Positions 41,927 to 54,558 of a stretch of DNA of 64,000 nt are shown here, piece by piece (the stretch's first letter is position 1; every line of letters starts with the position of its first letter). Below the pieces are notes generated by a model. That model saw only the letters and a program-made list of their open reading frames with translations. It was not told the DNA's origin and made no database searches. The stretch covers positions 186,001-250,000 of the forward strand of contig JAEURQ010000002.1 in NCBI GenBank assembly GCA_016788425.1, written 5' to 3'. The stretch comes from Chthonomonas sp. GTDB lineage: Bacteria; Armatimonadota; Fimbriimonadia; Fimbriimonadales; Fimbriimonadaceae. Position numbers and translations under genes: made by a program.

Positions 41927-41976
41927 GCCTCATTATGGCCGAGAACGCGGACCGGCTCCAGGTAAACTTACGGATC

Positions 41977-42367: not shown

Positions 42368-42748
42368 ATGATCCGGATTGTTACCATCGAACACTCCGAC
42401 TTGGCGTCGTCGGAATTTGTGATCTTGCAGAACCAGGGCGGTTTGCGAGTGCGGCTTCGTGGGCACGTGCTGCTCAGCGAAACTTGCCTCGATCACAACT
42501 CGGTGTCGTGCCACATGTTCACCGACGACGTGACCATTAACCCCGGCCACTTCGTGATTTTGGGCACCGGCCAAGGGCCAAGCCGATGGGTGACGCTGGA
42601 CGACGGGCGCTACGCCTACCAAACGTTTATCGGGCGAGCGACGCCGATTTGGGGTCGCGAACAGCTACCGCTTCACGTGCTGAGCGTGCAACATTCATAC
42701 GAAGAGCGCGCCTGCAAGAAGGTCCTTACCGGGGCCGCTGCCGGTTAA
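42368..42748 (+). CDS. Lamin-tail-like (LTD) single-domain protein
   Basis: 126 residues without signal peptide. The pattern SSEFVILQNQGGLRVRLRGH, CHMFTDDVTINPGHFVILGT resembles the immunoglobulin-like lamin-tail domain (E-x-V-x-I-x-N, then H-x-F, then PG-x-x-V-x-x-x-TG). In bacteria such domains are usually part of exported nucleases; here it is alone and cytosolic. Recognition is by eye and moderate. Its end overlaps convergent pth by 23 bp. Confidence 0.65.
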   Translation: MIRIVTIEHSDLASSEFVILQNQGGLRVRLRGHVLLSETCLDHNSVSCHMFTDDVTINPGHFVILGTGQGPSRWVTLDDGRYAYQTFIGRATPIWGREQLPLHVLSVQHSYEERACKKVLTGAAAG

Positions 42749-46857: not shown

Positions 46858-48993
46858 CTAAGAGACGACGGCCACGGCTTGAATCGCGCGACGTTCGCGC
46901 ACGCGCTCGAGCATCACCGCATGATCAGGGCGCGCGAGGTCGGGGTCTTGCTCCAACACCTCCATGGCCAAGGCGCGTGATTCCTCGAGCAACTTGGTGT
47001 CTTGCACCAAGTCAGCGAGTTTGAAATCGAACTGACCCGACTGCCGGGTTCCCGCGACGTCACCCGGGCCGCGTAATTGCAGGTCCACTTCGGCGATCTT
47101 AAATCCGTCGGTTGTATCGCGGATCGTGGACATGCGCGTGATGGACTCGTCGGTTTTGGCATCGGCGATGAGAATGCAGTAGCTTTGGAACGAGCCCCGC
47201 CCAACGCGGCCACGCAGCTGGTGGAGTTGGGCGAGGCCAAACCGGTTGGCATCTTCGATGGTCATTACCGTGGCGTTCGGCACGTCGACGCCGACTTCGA
47301 TGACGACCGTGCTGACCAAAATGTCGAGTTCGTGGCGGCGGAACGCGCCCATGATCTCCTCCTTCTCGGCGCTTTTCATGTTGCCGTGGAGCAGGCCGAC
47401 GCGGTAGTCGGGGAAATGCTCCGTCCGCAGCCGTTCGTAGAGTTCTTCCGCTGCCTGCGCCTGAAGCTTCTCGCTCTCGGCGATCATCGGGCACACAAAG
47501 TAGGCTTGCCGACCTTGCGTCAAGATGTCCCGGACCGCGCTATAGACTTGGTCGCGTTCGTGCGGCCGCTTCCAGTGAGTTTTGATCGGGCGTCGGCCGG
47601 GCGGCAACTCGTCAATGATGCTCACATCGAGGTCGCCATACAGCGTCATGGTGAGCGTCCGCGGAATCGGGGTCGCGGTCATCACCAGCACGTCAGGATT
47701 CTCGCGACCCTTCTGCCGGAGGGCGGCTCGTTGCAACACGCCAAAGCGGTGCTGCTCGTCCACGACGGCGAGGCCAAGTTTGTGGAATGTGACGGACTCT
47801 TGAACTAGCGCATGGGTGCCGACCAGAATCTGCGCCTCGCCGTTCTCGGCTTGCTGAGTCGCTTTGCGTTTTTTCGGTGCGGGCATCTTGCCGTGAAGGA
47901 GCACCACTTTGATGCCCACCCGATCGAACACCGCTTGCAAGTTAAGGAAATGCTGTTCGGCGAGGATTTCCGTCGGCGCCATGAGCGCGGCTTGATACCC
48001 CGCGCGAACCGCGGCGAGCATTGCGGCGGCGGCCACCGCGGTCTTGCCGGAACCCACATCGCCCTGCACCAAACGGTTCATCGGCGCGGGCCGCTGCATG
48101 TCGTTCCAAACGTCTTGAATCACCCGCTTTTGCGCGCCCGTGAGTTCAAATGGCAGCATCACGCCCAGTTGATCGCGGATGTCCATCCGTTGGCCGTCGG
48201 CAAAAAGGCCGCCGCCACTGAGATTCGGCTCGTCCCAATCGAACCCGATTCCGACTTCTTGCTGGGTTTCTCGCCGCCGCATTTGCAGCGCCAACTGCAT
48301 AAAGAAGAACTCCTCAAACACGAGTCGCCGCCGGGCCGCACGGCGCGTGTCCTCCGAATCCGGGCGGTGAATTTGGGTGAGCGCCTCGCGGATGCCGATG
48401 AGGTTGGCGCGTTGTCGCCATTGACGCGGCAGCGCCTCTGCCACCGCAGAGATATAGCCCTGCAACGCGCTATCGGTGGCCTTGCGGAGCACTGTTTGCG
48501 GAACGCCTTCGGTACTCGGATAGACCGGCGTGAGGCGGGCGAACGCCTCAACATCATCTTCGTCTTCGGGAAGCTCAATCTCGGGGGCCGAAATCTCAAG
48601 CGTGCGCGAGCCGCGGCTCTCGCGTACCATGCCGAACGCGATCACATCCTCGGCGCCGTCCAGCTTTTTGCGAATCCACGGTTGGTTGAACCAGGTGAGC
48701 GTGACCTCGCCGGTGCCGTCGGTGAGCGTGGCGGTGAGGATCACGCGACCACCGCGCAGCGTGCGGCTTTCAAGGCGACGGATTTCTCCCCGCACGGTCG
48801 CAACTTCGCCGGGCACGAGTAGGCGAATCGGCGGTAAATTGCGCCGGTCTTCGTAGCGGCGGGGGAAGTGGTAGAGCACGTCGCGGACTTTGCGCAGACC
48901 CAACTTGCCCAGCGGGACGGCCCACTTGGGGCCGACACCTTTGAGATATTGTATTTCAGTCGCGAGGCGATCCTGGGGCGCAAAGTCGTCCAT
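46858..48993 (-). CDS. recG: ATP-dependent DNA helicase RecG
   Basis: 711 residues: the N-terminal wedge OB fold (VATVRGEIRRLESRTLRGG), Walker A GDVGSGKTAVAAA, the DEQH box in VVDEQHRFG, and helicase C motifs (QLRGRVGRG). It remodels stalled forks and Holliday junctions. It leads a six-gene operon and starts only 19 bp from the divergent ATP synthase operon. Confidence 0.97.
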   Translation of the reverse strand: MDDFAPQDRLATEIQYLKGVGPKWAVPLGKLGLRKVRDVLYHFPRRYEDRRNLPPIRLLVPGEVATVRGEIRRLESRTLRGGRVILTATLTDGTGEVTLTWFNQPWIRKKLDGAEDVIAFGMVRESRGSRTLEISAPEIELPEDEDDVEAFARLTPVYPSTEGVPQTVLRKATDSALQGYISAVAEALPRQWRQRANLIGIREALTQIHRPDSEDTRRAARRRLVFEEFFFMQLALQMRRRETQQEVGIGFDWDEPNLSGGGLFADGQRMDIRDQLGVMLPFELTGAQKRVIQDVWNDMQRPAPMNRLVQGDVGSGKTAVAAAAMLAAVRAGYQAALMAPTEILAEQHFLNLQAVFDRVGIKVVLLHGKMPAPKKRKATQQAENGEAQILVGTHALVQESVTFHKLGLAVVDEQHRFGVLQRAALRQKGRENPDVLVMTATPIPRTLTMTLYGDLDVSIIDELPPGRRPIKTHWKRPHERDQVYSAVRDILTQGRQAYFVCPMIAESEKLQAQAAEELYERLRTEHFPDYRVGLLHGNMKSAEKEEIMGAFRRHELDILVSTVVIEVGVDVPNATVMTIEDANRFGLAQLHQLRGRVGRGSFQSYCILIADAKTDESITRMSTIRDTTDGFKIAEVDLQLRGPGDVAGTRQSGQFDFKLADLVQDTKLLEESRALAMEVLEQDPDLARPDHAVMLERVRERRAIQAVAVVS

Positions 48994-49015
48994 CTAGTGC
49001 TTTAATTCAAGTATG
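48991..49015. promoter_or_regulatory. Overlapping divergent -10 boxes, recG / atp operon
   Basis: Plus strand: TTTAAT (49001-49006) and 6 nt before the ATG at 49013. Minus strand: TTAAAG (49000-49005 complement) and 6 nt before the ATG at 48993. The two -10 boxes share almost the same base pairs, so the operons should compete for polymerase. -35 boxes would fall inside the opposing coding sequences. Confidence 0.6.
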
Positions 49016-49492
49016 AATGACGACCGCCTGCCGCCTGATGACGCGCTGGACGCCGAAATCCGGGAGCTCGAAACCAAGCTGGATGACGCCGAGCGGTCTC
49101 CGCTCGACCCGCCGAAGACGCGACTCGATGCGCTAGAGGAAGAAGCCAATTCGTTGCTCTCGTCCGCGAGCGAGCGAAAAGTCAACCTTCCCGATCCGCC
49201 CGATTTTGACAAACTGGACGAGATTCACCAGCGGGGAACTGCCGGGCAGCAGGCGTTGCAAAGCGAGCGAGAAATCCCTGAGGGCCAGCGCGCTTATATG
49301 AAAGCGACGAGCGTCGGCATGGCGGCAGCTTACGGATTTCTTGCCGTGCCCGCCGGATTTTTTCTCATCGGACTAATGCTGCAGAATACCGTCTGGCCCG
49401 GCCCAAACGCGGTCAAAGTCATGACCCTTGTAGGCGTCGTTAGCGGGTTTGCCTACATGCTCGTCGTGCTTTCGCGTGGGAACAAGGATTGA
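49013..49492 (+). CDS. AtpZ-like membrane protein
   Basis: 159 residues: a long acidic cytoplasmic N-terminus (about 95 residues) and two membrane helices (SVGMAAAYGFLAVPAGFFLIGLM, VKVMTLVGVVSGFAYMLVVL shortened here in part). Position and topology match AtpZ, which with AtpI helps ATP synthase c-ring assembly. First gene of the atp operon; overlaps the next gene by 4 bp. The N-terminal extension is longer than usual. Confidence 0.7.
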   Translation: MNDDRLPPDDALDAEIRELETKLDDAERSPLDPPKTRLDALEEEANSLLSSASERKVNLPDPPDFDKLDEIHQRGTAGQQALQSEREIPEGQRAYMKATSVGMAAAYGFLAVPAGFFLIGLMLQNTVWPGPNAVKVMTLVGVVSGFAYMLVVLSRGNKD

Positions 49493-49851
49493 GACGCTTT
49501 TTCCGCTTGGTGCCGGCGCTAATCTTGGGCAGCGGGATCGTGCTGGCGGTGCTTGCGGTGCGGGGATTGGAGTACGTGACAGGCGGCCTCATCGGCATGG
49601 CTGCGGGAGGACAAGCGTTTATCACGTACCAGGCCTACGCAAAGTTCTTGGCGACAAGCAACGAGAACAGTCCCGAAAAGCTGAGGCTGACCATCGTGAT
49701 GATGACGGCATTTGCCCTGAAAGTCATTACGATAGCCATGGGCTTCCGGTTGCAATCTGAATGGGGAAATCCGGCCAGCATGGGCCTTGCAGTGGGTTTG
49801 CTTTGGGTATACTTTGCGGTCATAGGGTGGTTGATGGCCGCAGATTCGTAG
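49489..49851 (+). CDS. AtpI-like protein
   Basis: 120 residues with four hydrophobic helices (LVPALILGSGIVLAVLAV, GGLIGMAAGGQAFITY, RLTIVMMTAFALKVITIAMG, LAVGLLWVYFAVIGWLMA). The place just before atpB fits AtpI, a c-ring assembly chaperone. TTG start overlapping the previous stop. Confidence 0.72.
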   Translation: MRRFFRLVPALILGSGIVLAVLAVRGLEYVTGGLIGMAAGGQAFITYQAYAKFLATSNENSPEKLRLTIVMMTAFALKVITIAMGFRLQSEWGNPASMGLAVGLLWVYFAVIGWLMAADS

Positions 49852-49872
49852 CCAGAACGCCCATTTTGCTGT

Positions 49873-50622
49873 ATGGACATCACCAGCCAACTAAGTACGT
49901 TTTTGGCCGCCGGGGGCGGAGAAGAGGGCCATAAGGTTACGGTTAACTTTATCGGCACGATGGTGTACTTTGGGCTCGTGCTCGCGGTGGTCTTTGGACT
50001 CCTCTCTGTCGCCCGCAAAGGCTTCCGGCCCGGAGTTTTCCAGGGGCGGTTAGCCAACTGGTCGGAGCAGCTCTACCTCTTTATTGAGAATCTTTGCGTG
50101 AGCATCATTGGCTCGCATGGCCGCAAGTACGTTCCGTTCATCATTACCTTTTGGCTCATCATCTTCATCAGCAACTTGGTGGCTCTGTTCTTCCCGACTT
50201 CGCCGACCGCGCTGCTAAGTTTCAACCTTGGGATGGCGATCATTTCGATCTTCTACGTTCAGTGGGAAGGCATCAAACAGAATGGATTCATCGGCCACTT
50301 CAGCCACTTTGCGGGCCCGAAACTCGGGGGCGCTCTTGTCCTCATCTCCGTGATGCTGTTCTTTATCGAGTTGGTTTCGGAGACCATGAAAATGGTGTCG
50401 CTCAGCCTCCGACTCTACGGAAACATCCATGGCGGTCACGAGGCCGTGCATGGAATGAACCAGATCACTTCCGCGTTCCCCATGGGTGAACTGCTGATTC
50501 CCGTGAAGATGCTCACGGTTGTTGTCCAGGCGCTTATCTTCTGCCTGCTCACCTGCGTCTACATCAGCTTGGTTACCCACGAGCCGCACGACGAACATCA
50601 CGGCGAGGCTCACGCCCATTAA
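49873..50622 (+). CDS. atpB: ATP synthase F0 subunit a
   Basis: 249 residues. The essential arginine is in the helix SLRLYGNIHGGHE, and FIELVSETMKMVSLSLR precedes it. It forms the proton half-channels next to the c-ring. The C-terminal tail is His/Glu-rich. 21 bp after the atpI-like gene. Confidence 0.96.
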   Translation: MDITSQLSTFLAAGGGEEGHKVTVNFIGTMVYFGLVLAVVFGLLSVARKGFRPGVFQGRLANWSEQLYLFIENLCVSIIGSHGRKYVPFIITFWLIIFISNLVALFFPTSPTALLSFNLGMAIISIFYVQWEGIKQNGFIGHFSHFAGPKLGGALVLISVMLFFIELVSETMKMVSLSLRLYGNIHGGHEAVHGMNQITSAFPMGELLIPVKMLTVVVQALIFCLLTCVYISLVTHEPHDEHHGEAHAH

Positions 50623-50679
50623 ATCGCTTTTGCCCTCGGGCAAATATCAACACTCAAACGAAAATTAGGACTAAAAAAT

Positions 50680-50886
50680 ATGTACCTTCCCATTGCACTT
50701 GGACTCGCAGCTCTCGGGGTCGCCATCGGCCTCGGCATGATCGGTAACGGCGCTATGAACGGCATGAGCCGCCAGCCCGAAGCCATCGGCAAAATGCAGA
50801 CCGCCATGCTTATCGCTATGGCGTTCGTCGAACTCGTCTTCCTGCTCACCGTCTTCGTTGGCGCGGGCGCGTTCAAGGGTAGCTAA
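50680..50886 (+). CDS. atpE: ATP synthase F0 subunit c
   Basis: 68 residues in two hairpin helices with the RQPEA loop (residues 31-35). The ion-carrying carboxylate is Glu51 in MAFVELVFLL. The residues around it lack the Gln/Ser set of sodium enzymes, so proton coupling is inferred. Confidence 0.97.
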   Translation: MYLPIALGLAALGVAIGLGMIGNGAMNGMSRQPEAIGKMQTAMLIAMAFVELVFLLTVFVGAGAFKGS

Positions 50887-50948
50887 CCCGACACGGTTCC
50901 TTGGGGCAACCCAAGGAACCTCCCTAAATTTTTTGAACAGTTTCTGAA

Positions 50949-51587
50949 ATGGCAACGCAAAAATCTTCTGGAATTCCATACATCGTCAAGCTCATTGTGG
51001 GCGTGGGGATGGCGGTTGGTGGCTTCAAGCTCTCGCACATGGCACACGAGCCAGGCAACGGGCTGTACGACATCACGCATAAGATGTCGGAAATGGGGAT
51101 CCCCATTGACCTTGGGATTACCATCGCCGTCATTGGCGTTTTCCTTATTGTTTTCCCGGCAATCCAATCGTTCTATGTTACGCCGCTGGAAGATGCTGTC
51201 AACGAGCGCACCTCGCGCCTCGAAAGCACGTTTAGCGAAGCCGAAAGCCTGCGGTCGGAAATGACGCAGATGAAGGCCGACTACGAAACCCGCCTGGCGA
51301 AAGCCGAAGGTGAAGCTCGGGCCGCCATTCAAGAAGAGATTAAGAAAGCTCAGGACCTTCGGGCGCAAATGCAAGCCGAAGTGGCCGCCCAACGGGCGGA
51401 TATGCTGAAGAAGGCCGAGGATGAAATTTCGGCCCAGCGAGCTGGCGTTGTTAGCCAACTCCGCACCCAAACCGTGAACCTCACGATGAGCGCCACCGAA
51501 AAGTTAATTGGCGCGAAGCTCGATTCCGAAGCGGATCGCAAGCTTATCGAAGAATTCATCGACAAGGCCGAGGTGCCCAGCTTCTAA
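50949..51587 (+). CDS. atpF: ATP synthase F0 subunit b with an extra N-terminal hydrophobic segment
   Basis: 212 residues against about 160 in most bacteria. Two hydrophobic segments are seen (about 10-28 and 53-73: DLGITIAVIGVFLIVFPAIQ), then the long charged stalk helix (EDAVNERTSRLESTF onward). The second segment corresponds to the usual membrane anchor. Directly followed by atpH (1 bp overlap). Confidence 0.93.
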   Translation: MATQKSSGIPYIVKLIVGVGMAVGGFKLSHMAHEPGNGLYDITHKMSEMGIPIDLGITIAVIGVFLIVFPAIQSFYVTPLEDAVNERTSRLESTFSEAESLRSEMTQMKADYETRLAKAEGEARAAIQEEIKKAQDLRAQMQAEVAAQRADMLKKAEDEISAQRAGVVSQLRTQTVNLTMSATEKLIGAKLDSEADRKLIEEFIDKAEVPSF

Positions 51588-52138
51588 TGGACCAACGCGT
51601 CGCCCTCCGATACGCTCAAGCGCTCTTTAATGCCGCCAAGAAGCAAGGGGTGGTAGGCGCCGTGGGCGATGACCTTAACGCGATTGGCGGTGCTATCCAA
51701 GGTGAACCGCGACTCGCGAAGATCATCGGCGACCAAGATACGCCGCGCCACCAAAAGCAGGGTCTGCTGGAGCGGTTGTTCTCCGACCGCGTGACCTCGC
51801 TCACCATGCAAGTGCTGCGGCTCATGCTGGAAAAGAAGCGTGAAGGCGGGCTGCTCGAATTGCGCGATGCCTACGACGCTCTCCGCAAAGAAGATGAGCG
51901 CGTGCTCAGCATCAACGTGGTTTCGGCGCGCGAACTCACCGCCGACCAAAAGCAACGAATTGAAAAGAAGATTGCCGACGCGACCAAAAAGTCGGTGACG
52001 GCAACTTACGAAATTGAACCCAAAGTGCAAGGCGGGGTCAAGGTCGAACTCGGGGGGTACGTCATTGACGGCACCGTCACCGGCGGCCTGAACCGACTGC
52101 GAGAGACCCTGAAATACGACTTCCTGAACCAACGATAA
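51587..52138 (+). CDS. atpH: ATP synthase F1 subunit delta
   Basis: 183 residues. It begins [19 protein letters not shown] and ends with the [20 protein letters not shown] signature. It connects the b stalk to the alpha subunits. Between atpF and atpA as usual. Confidence 0.96.
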
Positions 52139-52146
52139 CTGCAACC

Positions 52147-53691
52147 ATGGCTATCCGACCCGAAGAAATTACATCGATTCTTGAACAAGAACTTACGAAG
52201 TTCGACCGCAAGACAGACACCGAACACGTCGGCACCGTTCTCCAGGTGGGTGACGGGATCGCTCGTATTTACGGCCTCCCCGACTGCCAAATGGGTGAGC
52301 TGCTCGAATTCCCGGAAGCGGGCGTTCAAGGCCTCGCTCTGAACCTGGAAGAAGATTCGATCGGTGCGGTTATCATCGGCGACGAAACCCTCGTTAAGGA
52401 AGGTCACACGGTCCGCGAAACCGGCCGCATTATCGAAATCCCGACCGGCAAGGGTCTGCTCGGACGCGTCGTCAACTCGCTCGGTCAACCGGTCGACAAC
52501 AAGGGTCCGATCAACGCCGAATCCAGCAGCCGTATCGAAGTCATCGCCCCCGGCGTTGTCGAGCGACAGCCCGTTAAGCAGCCGCTGCAAACCGGCATCA
52601 AGGCCGTTGACTCCATGATTCCCGTCGGCCGCGGCCAACGCGAACTCGTCATCGGCGACCGCCAAACCGGCAAGACCTCGGTTTGTATCGACACGATTAT
52701 TAACCAGAAGCGCACCCACGAACCGGGTGGCCTTCCGGTCTACTGCATCTACGTTGCCGTCGGTCAAAAGATGGCCAACGTCGCCCGCGTCGTGGAAACC
52801 CTCCGCGAAGCCGGTGCCCTCGAATACACCATCGTCGTTCTCGCTTCGGCCTCCGACTCGAACGCCATGCAATACCTCGCGCCGTTCGCCGGAGCCGCCA
52901 TCGGCGAGTTCTTCCGCAACAACGGAATGCACGCGCTTGTGGTTTACGATGACCTTACCAAGCACGCCGCCGCCTACCGCGCGCTGTCGCTGCTTCTGCG
53001 ACGACCGCCCGGACGCGAAGCGTTCCCCGGCGACGTTTTCTACCTGCACAGCCGCTTGCTCGAGCGCGCCGCCAAGCTCAGCGATGAGCTCGGTGGTGGT
53101 TCGCTCACCGCGCTGCCGGTTATCGAAACCCAATCGGGCGACGTTTCGGCGTACATCCCGACCAACGTTATCTCGATTACCGACGGTCAAATCTATCTCG
53201 AACCGGACCTCTTCCTCGCCGGTGTCCGCCCCGCCATCAACGTCGGGATCTCGGTCAGCCGCGTGGGTGGGAACGCCCAGGTGAAGGCGATGAAGCAAGT
53301 CGCCGGGAAGCTGAAGCTCGAAATGGCTCAGTACCGCGACGTGGCTGCCTTCGCGCAGTTCGCCAGCGACCTCGACCGCGCCACGCAGATGCAGTTGCTC
53401 CGCGGCCAACGCCTTACCGAGCTTCTTAAGCAGGGTCTCAGCAAGCCGTACAGCAACACCGACCAAGTTCTTTCGATTTTTGCCGGTACCAACGGATTCC
53501 TCGACGATCTCCCGCTCGATCAAATCGCCAACTTCGAAACCTTCCTGCTCGCGTTCCTCAAGGATAAGTATCCGGACGCCGTGGAAGAAATCAACGCGAA
53601 GAACGAGCTGAGCGGTGACGTCGAAGCCAAGCTGAAGACGGCCTACGCCGAAGCGGTCAGCGCCTTCAAGAAGGAAAAGGGACTCAGCTAA
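52147..53691 (+). CDS. atpA: ATP synthase F1 subunit alpha
   Basis: 514 residues with the Walker A motif GDRQTGKTS near residue 171, the alpha-specific [20 protein letters not shown], and [13 protein letters not shown]. It binds nucleotide at non-catalytic sites. Full length. Confidence 0.98.
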
Positions 53692-53700
53692 CCACAAGCT

Positions 53701-54558
53701 ATGGCGACACTCAAGGAAATTCGACAGCGAATCCGGTCGGCGAAGAATATTCGCCAGATCACGCGAGCGATGAAGCTTGTCGCCGCCGCACGCCTTAAGA
53801 AAGCGCAAGATCGCGTGCTGGAATCGCGCCCCTACGCCGATAAGCTCCATGAATTCATGGCCAGCATCAGCTCGGCGGGCTCGCTACCTTCGCATGAGCT
53901 GCTCGAAAAGCGCCCGGTCAAGCGCGTCGGCCTCATCCTCATCACCGCCGAGCGCGGATTGGCGGGTGGTTACAACACCAACCTCATCCGTAAGGCGGCG
54001 GATTTTGTGAAGAATTCGCAACATCCGATTGACCTGCTTTCGGTTGGCAAGAAGGGTGGCCAGTTCTTTGGCAAGCGCGGCGTGAACGTGGTGTTCAACT
54101 ACGCTTTGCCGACGAGCGGCGCCAAGACAACTTGCGCCGATACGGTCGTGAAGAAGGCGGTGGAAATGTTCACCACCGGCGAAGTGGACGCGATCTACGT
54201 GATCTACAGCAAGTTCTATTCGGCGATTCGCCAAGTCCCGACCGTCATGCAACTGCTGCCGATTGAGCCGCCTGCGCAAGAGGGCAAGGCTGCCAGCAAA
54301 GAGTACGAATTCGAGCCCTCGCCCGAAGGATTGCTGCAAACGCTGCTGCCGCGCTACGTGTTTACGCTCACGTTCCAGGCTCTGCTCGAGGCCACGGCCA
54401 GCGAGCACGGCGCCCGGATGAGCGCGATGACCGCCGCCACGGACAACGCCGGCAAGATGATCAACGATCTGACTCTGGTGGCCAACCGCGAACGCCAAGC
54501 CGCGATCACGACCCAGATTCTGGAAGTCGTCGGCGGCGCCGAAGCGCTCAAGGGCTAG
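53701..54558 (+). CDS. atpG: ATP synthase F1 subunit gamma
   Basis: 285 residues: N-terminal MATLKEIRQRIRSAKNIRQI, and the C-terminal signature TAATDNAGKMINDLTLVANR. It is the central rotor. It is the last gene of the operon here; atpD and atpC do not follow. Confidence 0.97.
   Translation: MATLKEIRQRIRSAKNIRQITRAMKLVAAARLKKAQDRVLESRPYADKLHEFMASISSAGSLPSHELLEKRPVKRVGLILITAERGLAGGYNTNLIRKAADFVKNSQHPIDLLSVGKKGGQFFGKRGVNVVFNYALPTSGAKTTCADTVVKKAVEMFTTGEVDAIYVIYSKFYSAIRQVPTVMQLLPIEPPAQEGKAASKEYEFEPSPEGLLQTLLPRYVFTLTFQALLEATASEHGARMSAMTAATDNAGKMINDLTLVANRERQAAITTQILEVVGGAEALKG

Follow-up and report, generated by a model that had tools for sequence, protein, structure and literature searches.

A putative compact bidirectional promoter shared by the recG and ATP-synthase operons of Chthonomonas sp.

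We judge it reasonably probable that the 19-bp gap between recG and a divergent atpZ-like gene, taken together with the atpZ start codon, serves as a compact bidirectional sigma70-type promoter in Chthonomonas sp. The analysis was centred on the window, a 64,000-nucleotide stretch of this genome, and the model is built from sequence comparisons. RNA polymerase moving rightward would use TTTAAT as its −10 element and initiate on the A of the start codon of atpZ, yielding a leaderless ATP-synthase mRNA. Polymerase moving leftward would use CATACT, which combines the atpZ start codon with the three preceding bases, and would initiate near position 49003, so that the recG mRNA would carry a leader of about 10 nt. 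The two predicted start sites, each placed with a 6-nt spacer, are 10 bp apart, and each falls within the −10 element of the opposing promoter. Thus, the two polymerases would exclude each other, and simultaneous initiation of both operons is probably impossible. If this model is correct, an ATP-synthase operon and a DNA-repair/envelope operon share a promoter wherein polymerase loading in one direction prevents loading in the other, and the opposite strand imposes a promoter constraint on a start codon.

Divergent operons and the conservation of their linkage

The recG ATG occupies positions 48993 to 48991 of the minus strand and the atpZ-like ATG occupies positions 49013 to 49015 of the plus strand, which agrees with the 19-bp separation given in a preliminary description of this DNA. 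The same description correctly placed TTTAAT (plus) and TTAAAG (minus) each 6 nt from its own start codon. The features discussed here are listed in Table 1.

Table 1. Positions of genes, candidate promoter elements and predicted transcript starts at the recG/atpZ locus.
Feature	Position	Strand	Basis
recG	46858..48993	−	NCBIfam RecG, 944 bits, above cut-off; Pfam RecG wedge and helicase domains
Intergenic gap with promoter elements	48994..49012		19 bp, ctagtgctttaattcaagt; 25/54 linked pairs have at most 40 bp
TTAAAG, hexamer proposed earlier for recG, probably not its −10	49000..49005	−	Background score; position not conserved
TTTAAT, predicted −10 of atpZ (leaderless)	49001..49006	+	Score 5.0, p = 0.022; position conserved; lacks −11A
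recG transcript start (A), predicted	49003..49003	−	Inferred from CATACT and a 6-nt spacer; leader about 10 nt
CATACT, predicted recG −10, overlaps atpZ start codon	49010..49015	−	AGT conservation; best candidate in 12/13 carriers
atpZ-like gene, heads ATP-synthase operon	49013..49492	+	Precedes atpB, order kept in relatives; homologues match PF09527 weakly
atpZ transcript start (A of ATG), predicted	49013..49013	+	Inferred from 6-nt spacer rule

The identity of recG is certain from its Pfam and NCBIfam matches. It is the first gene of the leftward operon and is followed by a deaminase gene and envelope-type genes down to about position 42726. The protein encoded by the rightward gene matches no Pfam family, PF09527 included, and three of its homologues match AtpZ (PF09527) below the curated cut-off (best 24.1 versus 26.6 bits, 3.9e-5). 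We therefore use the name atpZ-like, which reflects position and weak similarity. The same operon includes atpB at 49873. This ATP-synthase operon (49013–54558) apparently ends with a gamma-like gene (53701–54558), and the next 2 kb hold no open reading frame of beta-subunit length; the genes for beta and epsilon appear to be located elsewhere.

Comparison supports both starts: the recG frame offers no alternative in-frame start upstream, and the AtpZ-like proteins of relatives open with the same acidic M-x-D/E pattern. Neither start is preceded by a Shine-Dalgarno site, and a scan of positions 48700 to 49300 on both strands for consensus −35/−10 promoters found none.

Divergent recG/atpZ-like pairs are present in 54 genomes from 26 genera of the Fimbriimonadaceae (Armatimonadota), the family to which this genome belongs, with atpB just past the atpZ-like gene in the linked genomes examined. 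The preliminary description had named conservation of the short spacing in relatives as a check, and this check bears it out for 25 of the 54 pairs, whose gaps measure 40 bp or less; the remaining 29 pairs are distant. RecG has long terminal branches, with a median of 0.48 changes per column, such that gap sequence without constraint should be scrambled by now. No recG/atpZ link was seen in those other families of the same order that were looked at. In four genomes of one such family (f2; G053, G056, G058 and G059), where the atpZ link is absent, a GTATAC repeat precedes recG (GGTATACTCATGTATACCATG and similar) and possibly represents another compact promoter.

The Chthonomonas sp. genome comprises 2.67 Mb in 4 contigs, and genome-wide figures given here derive from a 457-kb sample in which genes were called with a simple codon-usage finder, except for the G[CG]CATA[AC]T pattern search described below. 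Six of the 57 divergent gaps in this sample are shorter than 20 bp, at least one of which resembles a gene-calling artefact. Thus, the recG/atpZ gap is short, yet not unique in the genome.

Leaderless genes and the atpZ promoter

Among the 369 genes predicted in the 457 kb, 31 have an upstream TANNNT hexamer separated from the start codon by 6 nt and 15 have one at 7 nt, against a background of approximately 4 per position; the start codon is ATG in 43 of these 46. A motif model fitted on all predicted genes of the sample returned G-G/C-T-A-n-A-(A/C)-T with a spacer mode of 6, assigned to 32% of genes. Pooled data from five relatives also exhibit an excess of TANNNT, at spacers of 6 to 9 and unevenly across genomes. 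This signature indicates that leaderless genes are widely used in this genome.

The sequence upstream of atpZ has the character of this class, in that TTTAAT is a −10-like hexamer scoring above background and located within the 6- to 7-nt distance. It is not strictly TANNNT, as it carries the −7T and has a T at −11, and many relatives carry TANNNT at this place. When scored with a matrix learned from the genome's own genes, 26 relatives have a median of 5.1 in the atpZ direction versus −3.0 for the null (p = 1e-13), and a composition-matched shuffle using one pair per genus gave a combined p of 2.5e-7. Most relatives have a −10-like hexamer 6 to 7 nt before atpZ; its letters vary by genus (TTTAAT, TACAAT, TACCTT, TAACGT, TATAAT) and its position is constant. 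Of the two leaderless transcripts claimed in the preliminary description, the atpZ transcript is thus consistent with the genome-wide 6-nt spacing and with the hexamers of relatives. The recG transcript is not, since the best score near its start is at background.

The palindromic TTTAA core that the preliminary description emphasised does not hold up as a conserved feature, being common to only a few relatives; others have GGTACC, TACAAT or TATAAT cores.

Candidate recG promoters and their alternatives

Conservation within the gap is strongest at AGT, directly before the atpZ ATG, and is absent between this triplet and the atpZ hexamer. Read on the recG strand, AGT-ATG becomes CATACT, which has −11A, −9A and −7T. 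AGT precedes atpZ in 13 of 26 relatives versus 6 of 653 genes generally (about 1%) and none of 70 leaderless-like genes. Of the close pairs, 15 of 25 carry it, versus 2 of 29 distant pairs (p = 3e-5, by a test that ignores ancestry), so that it is kept in two distant pairs (G020 and G095) and missing from 10 close ones; tree-based independent contrasts provided too few independent pairs to show a link between AGT and short gaps. CATACT is the top-scoring −10 candidate in the recG direction in 12 of the 13 AGT carriers examined. In the window itself it ranks second, with 2.4, under TTGAAT (2.8; spacer 11, no −11A). The shuffle test for recG, again with one pair per genus, gave a combined p of 2e-4, and for this species alone p = 0.43, which is not significant. 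The case for CATACT is thereby one of comparison between species, the element being weak in the window. On this comparison, recG more likely has a leader of approximately 10 nt and a CATACT −10 element that overlaps the atpZ start codon.

The preliminary description had assigned TTAAAG to recG, an arrangement in which both transcripts would be leaderless, TTTAAT and TTAAAG would overlap on the palindromic core, and 20 bp would separate the start sites, a distance close to the common 18-bp class of bidirectional promoters. The exact 6-nt spacing on either side is the genome's leaderless mode, and ATTAAAGC-like or TTAAGC-like cores occur before recG in six relatives (G005, G015, G031, G034, G088 and G090). 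TTAAAG nevertheless lacks both −11A and −7T, and relative to the recG start no position is conserved. The best hexamer at a leaderless distance from recG scores only −0.6 (p = 0.28), which places it at background. We have rejected TTAAAG as the recG −10, and the doubly leaderless arrangement appears improbable.

One could instead regard AGT as a discriminator or initiator of atpZ, with recG transcription depending on a different weak site, within the gap or past it, for which TTGAAT (49009–49004) is one candidate. AGT sits where an atpZ discriminator would be expected, and TTGAAT scores slightly above CATACT in the window. Against this explanation, which we consider unlikely, are the absence of AGT from all leaderless-like genes, its rarity where recG is distant, and its absence from the unlinked atpZ genes of G002, G019 and G026. 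There is a still smaller chance that both transcripts begin farther upstream, within the opposing genes, and that the AT-richness of the gap is incidental or marks a regulator site. The gap region has no −35 match and its AT-rich core is partly palindromic, as such an explanation would have it, but the missing Shine-Dalgarno and consensus promoter sequences argue otherwise, as do the constant position of the atpZ hexamer despite its letter changes and the failure of the core to persist as a palindrome. The arrangement we prefer, wherein CATACT and TTTAAT form one compact site for both operons, retains from the preliminary description the idea of a single site, and mutually exclusive binding of RNA polymerase is its expected consequence.

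Start codons within the neighbour's −10 element are also suggested elsewhere in the genome. The pattern G[CG]CATA[AC]T-N4-8-ATG occurs 18 times, versus 4 for the reversed control, and the majority of the G[CG]CATA[AC]T sites precede a coding open reading frame with a spacer of 5 to 8. At four sites, a coding gene on the divergent side also uses this CAT as its start codon; these sites include pterin dehydratase/Tmemb_14 (window 41926/41935), purL with a gene of unknown function, and two more. The top two start-overlap scores among 531 ATG genes belong to gaps of 8 and 10 bp, and across these same genes the score distributions do not differ in a way that would indicate general enrichment at short divergent gaps (p = 0.2). 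The excess of the pattern and the divergent start-codon sites together suggest that nesting of a −10 element in the neighbour's start codon is recurrent. We propose, tentatively and with slightly less than even confidence, that the Fimbriimonadaceae repeatedly use a start codon as the core of the −10 element that drives the opposite operon: about 11 genera would conserve this design at recG/atpZ, and about four other divergent pairs in this genome, with gaps of 8 to 10 bp, would also show it. If so, translation start, leaderless transcription and promoter competition would be tied into the same six bases.

At window positions 41927 to 41934, the genes for pterin-4a-carbinolamine dehydratase (minus) and the Tmemb_14 protein (plus) diverge with 8 bp between their start codons, and a CATAAT that draws on the Tmemb_14 start codon lies 5 nt before the dehydratase ATG. 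A different layout is found on L126 (897–914), where an 18-bp gap with near-symmetric −10 sequences, TAGACT (spacer 6) and TAGAGT (spacer 9), lies between the divergent genes pnuC (NMN transporter) and one encoding a HIT-domain protein. This pair is a clearer candidate for a doubly near-leaderless bidirectional promoter than recG/atpZ.

Relation to known leaderless genes and bidirectional promoters

The leaderless class seen here shares its motif, its 6- to 7-nt spacing and its mostly ATG starts with leaderless TANNNT genes described previously (PMC3160421; Deinococcus-Thermus, PMC12340547), and the fitted share of 32% is similar to that in D. radiodurans, for which nearly one-third is reported. 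It differs in its phylum, Armatimonadota, which is not named in the text of PMC3160421 as searched, in the GG or GC favoured directly upstream of the −10, and in the use of the motif in a divergent pair. Among the titles and abstracts covered by a literature search, there was no precedent for leaderless divergent pairs or for leaderless genes in Armatimonadota.

The bidirectional promoters of Warman and Grainger commonly have start sites spaced by 18, 10 or 23 bp (PMC12825309, PMC10268837), and at 10 bp two polymerases cannot bind together (PMC12825309). In E. coli, competition between polymerases becomes apparent only under strong activity of one direction (PMC12825309), and we thus expect conditional interference at recG/atpZ rather than constant antagonism. 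The likeness to these E. coli and Salmonella promoters consists of closely packed divergent −10 elements, a predicted 10-bp spacing and mutually exclusive binding. Their start sites are 7 to 25 bp apart, a range that holds both the 10 bp predicted here and the 20 bp that would apply if both transcripts were leaderless. Of the −11A and −7T that define such promoters in both directions, CATACT has the two, whereas TTTAAT of the window has only −7T. Unlike the Warman and Grainger promoters, the −10 elements here are predicted rather than mapped, at least one transcript is predicted to be leaderless, operon mRNAs are the products in both directions, and the −10 of one gene extends over the start codon of the other. 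If our model holds, Armatimonadota would join the groups with bidirectional promoters and with leaderless genes, and the locus would provide a simple, conserved case in which the two are combined.
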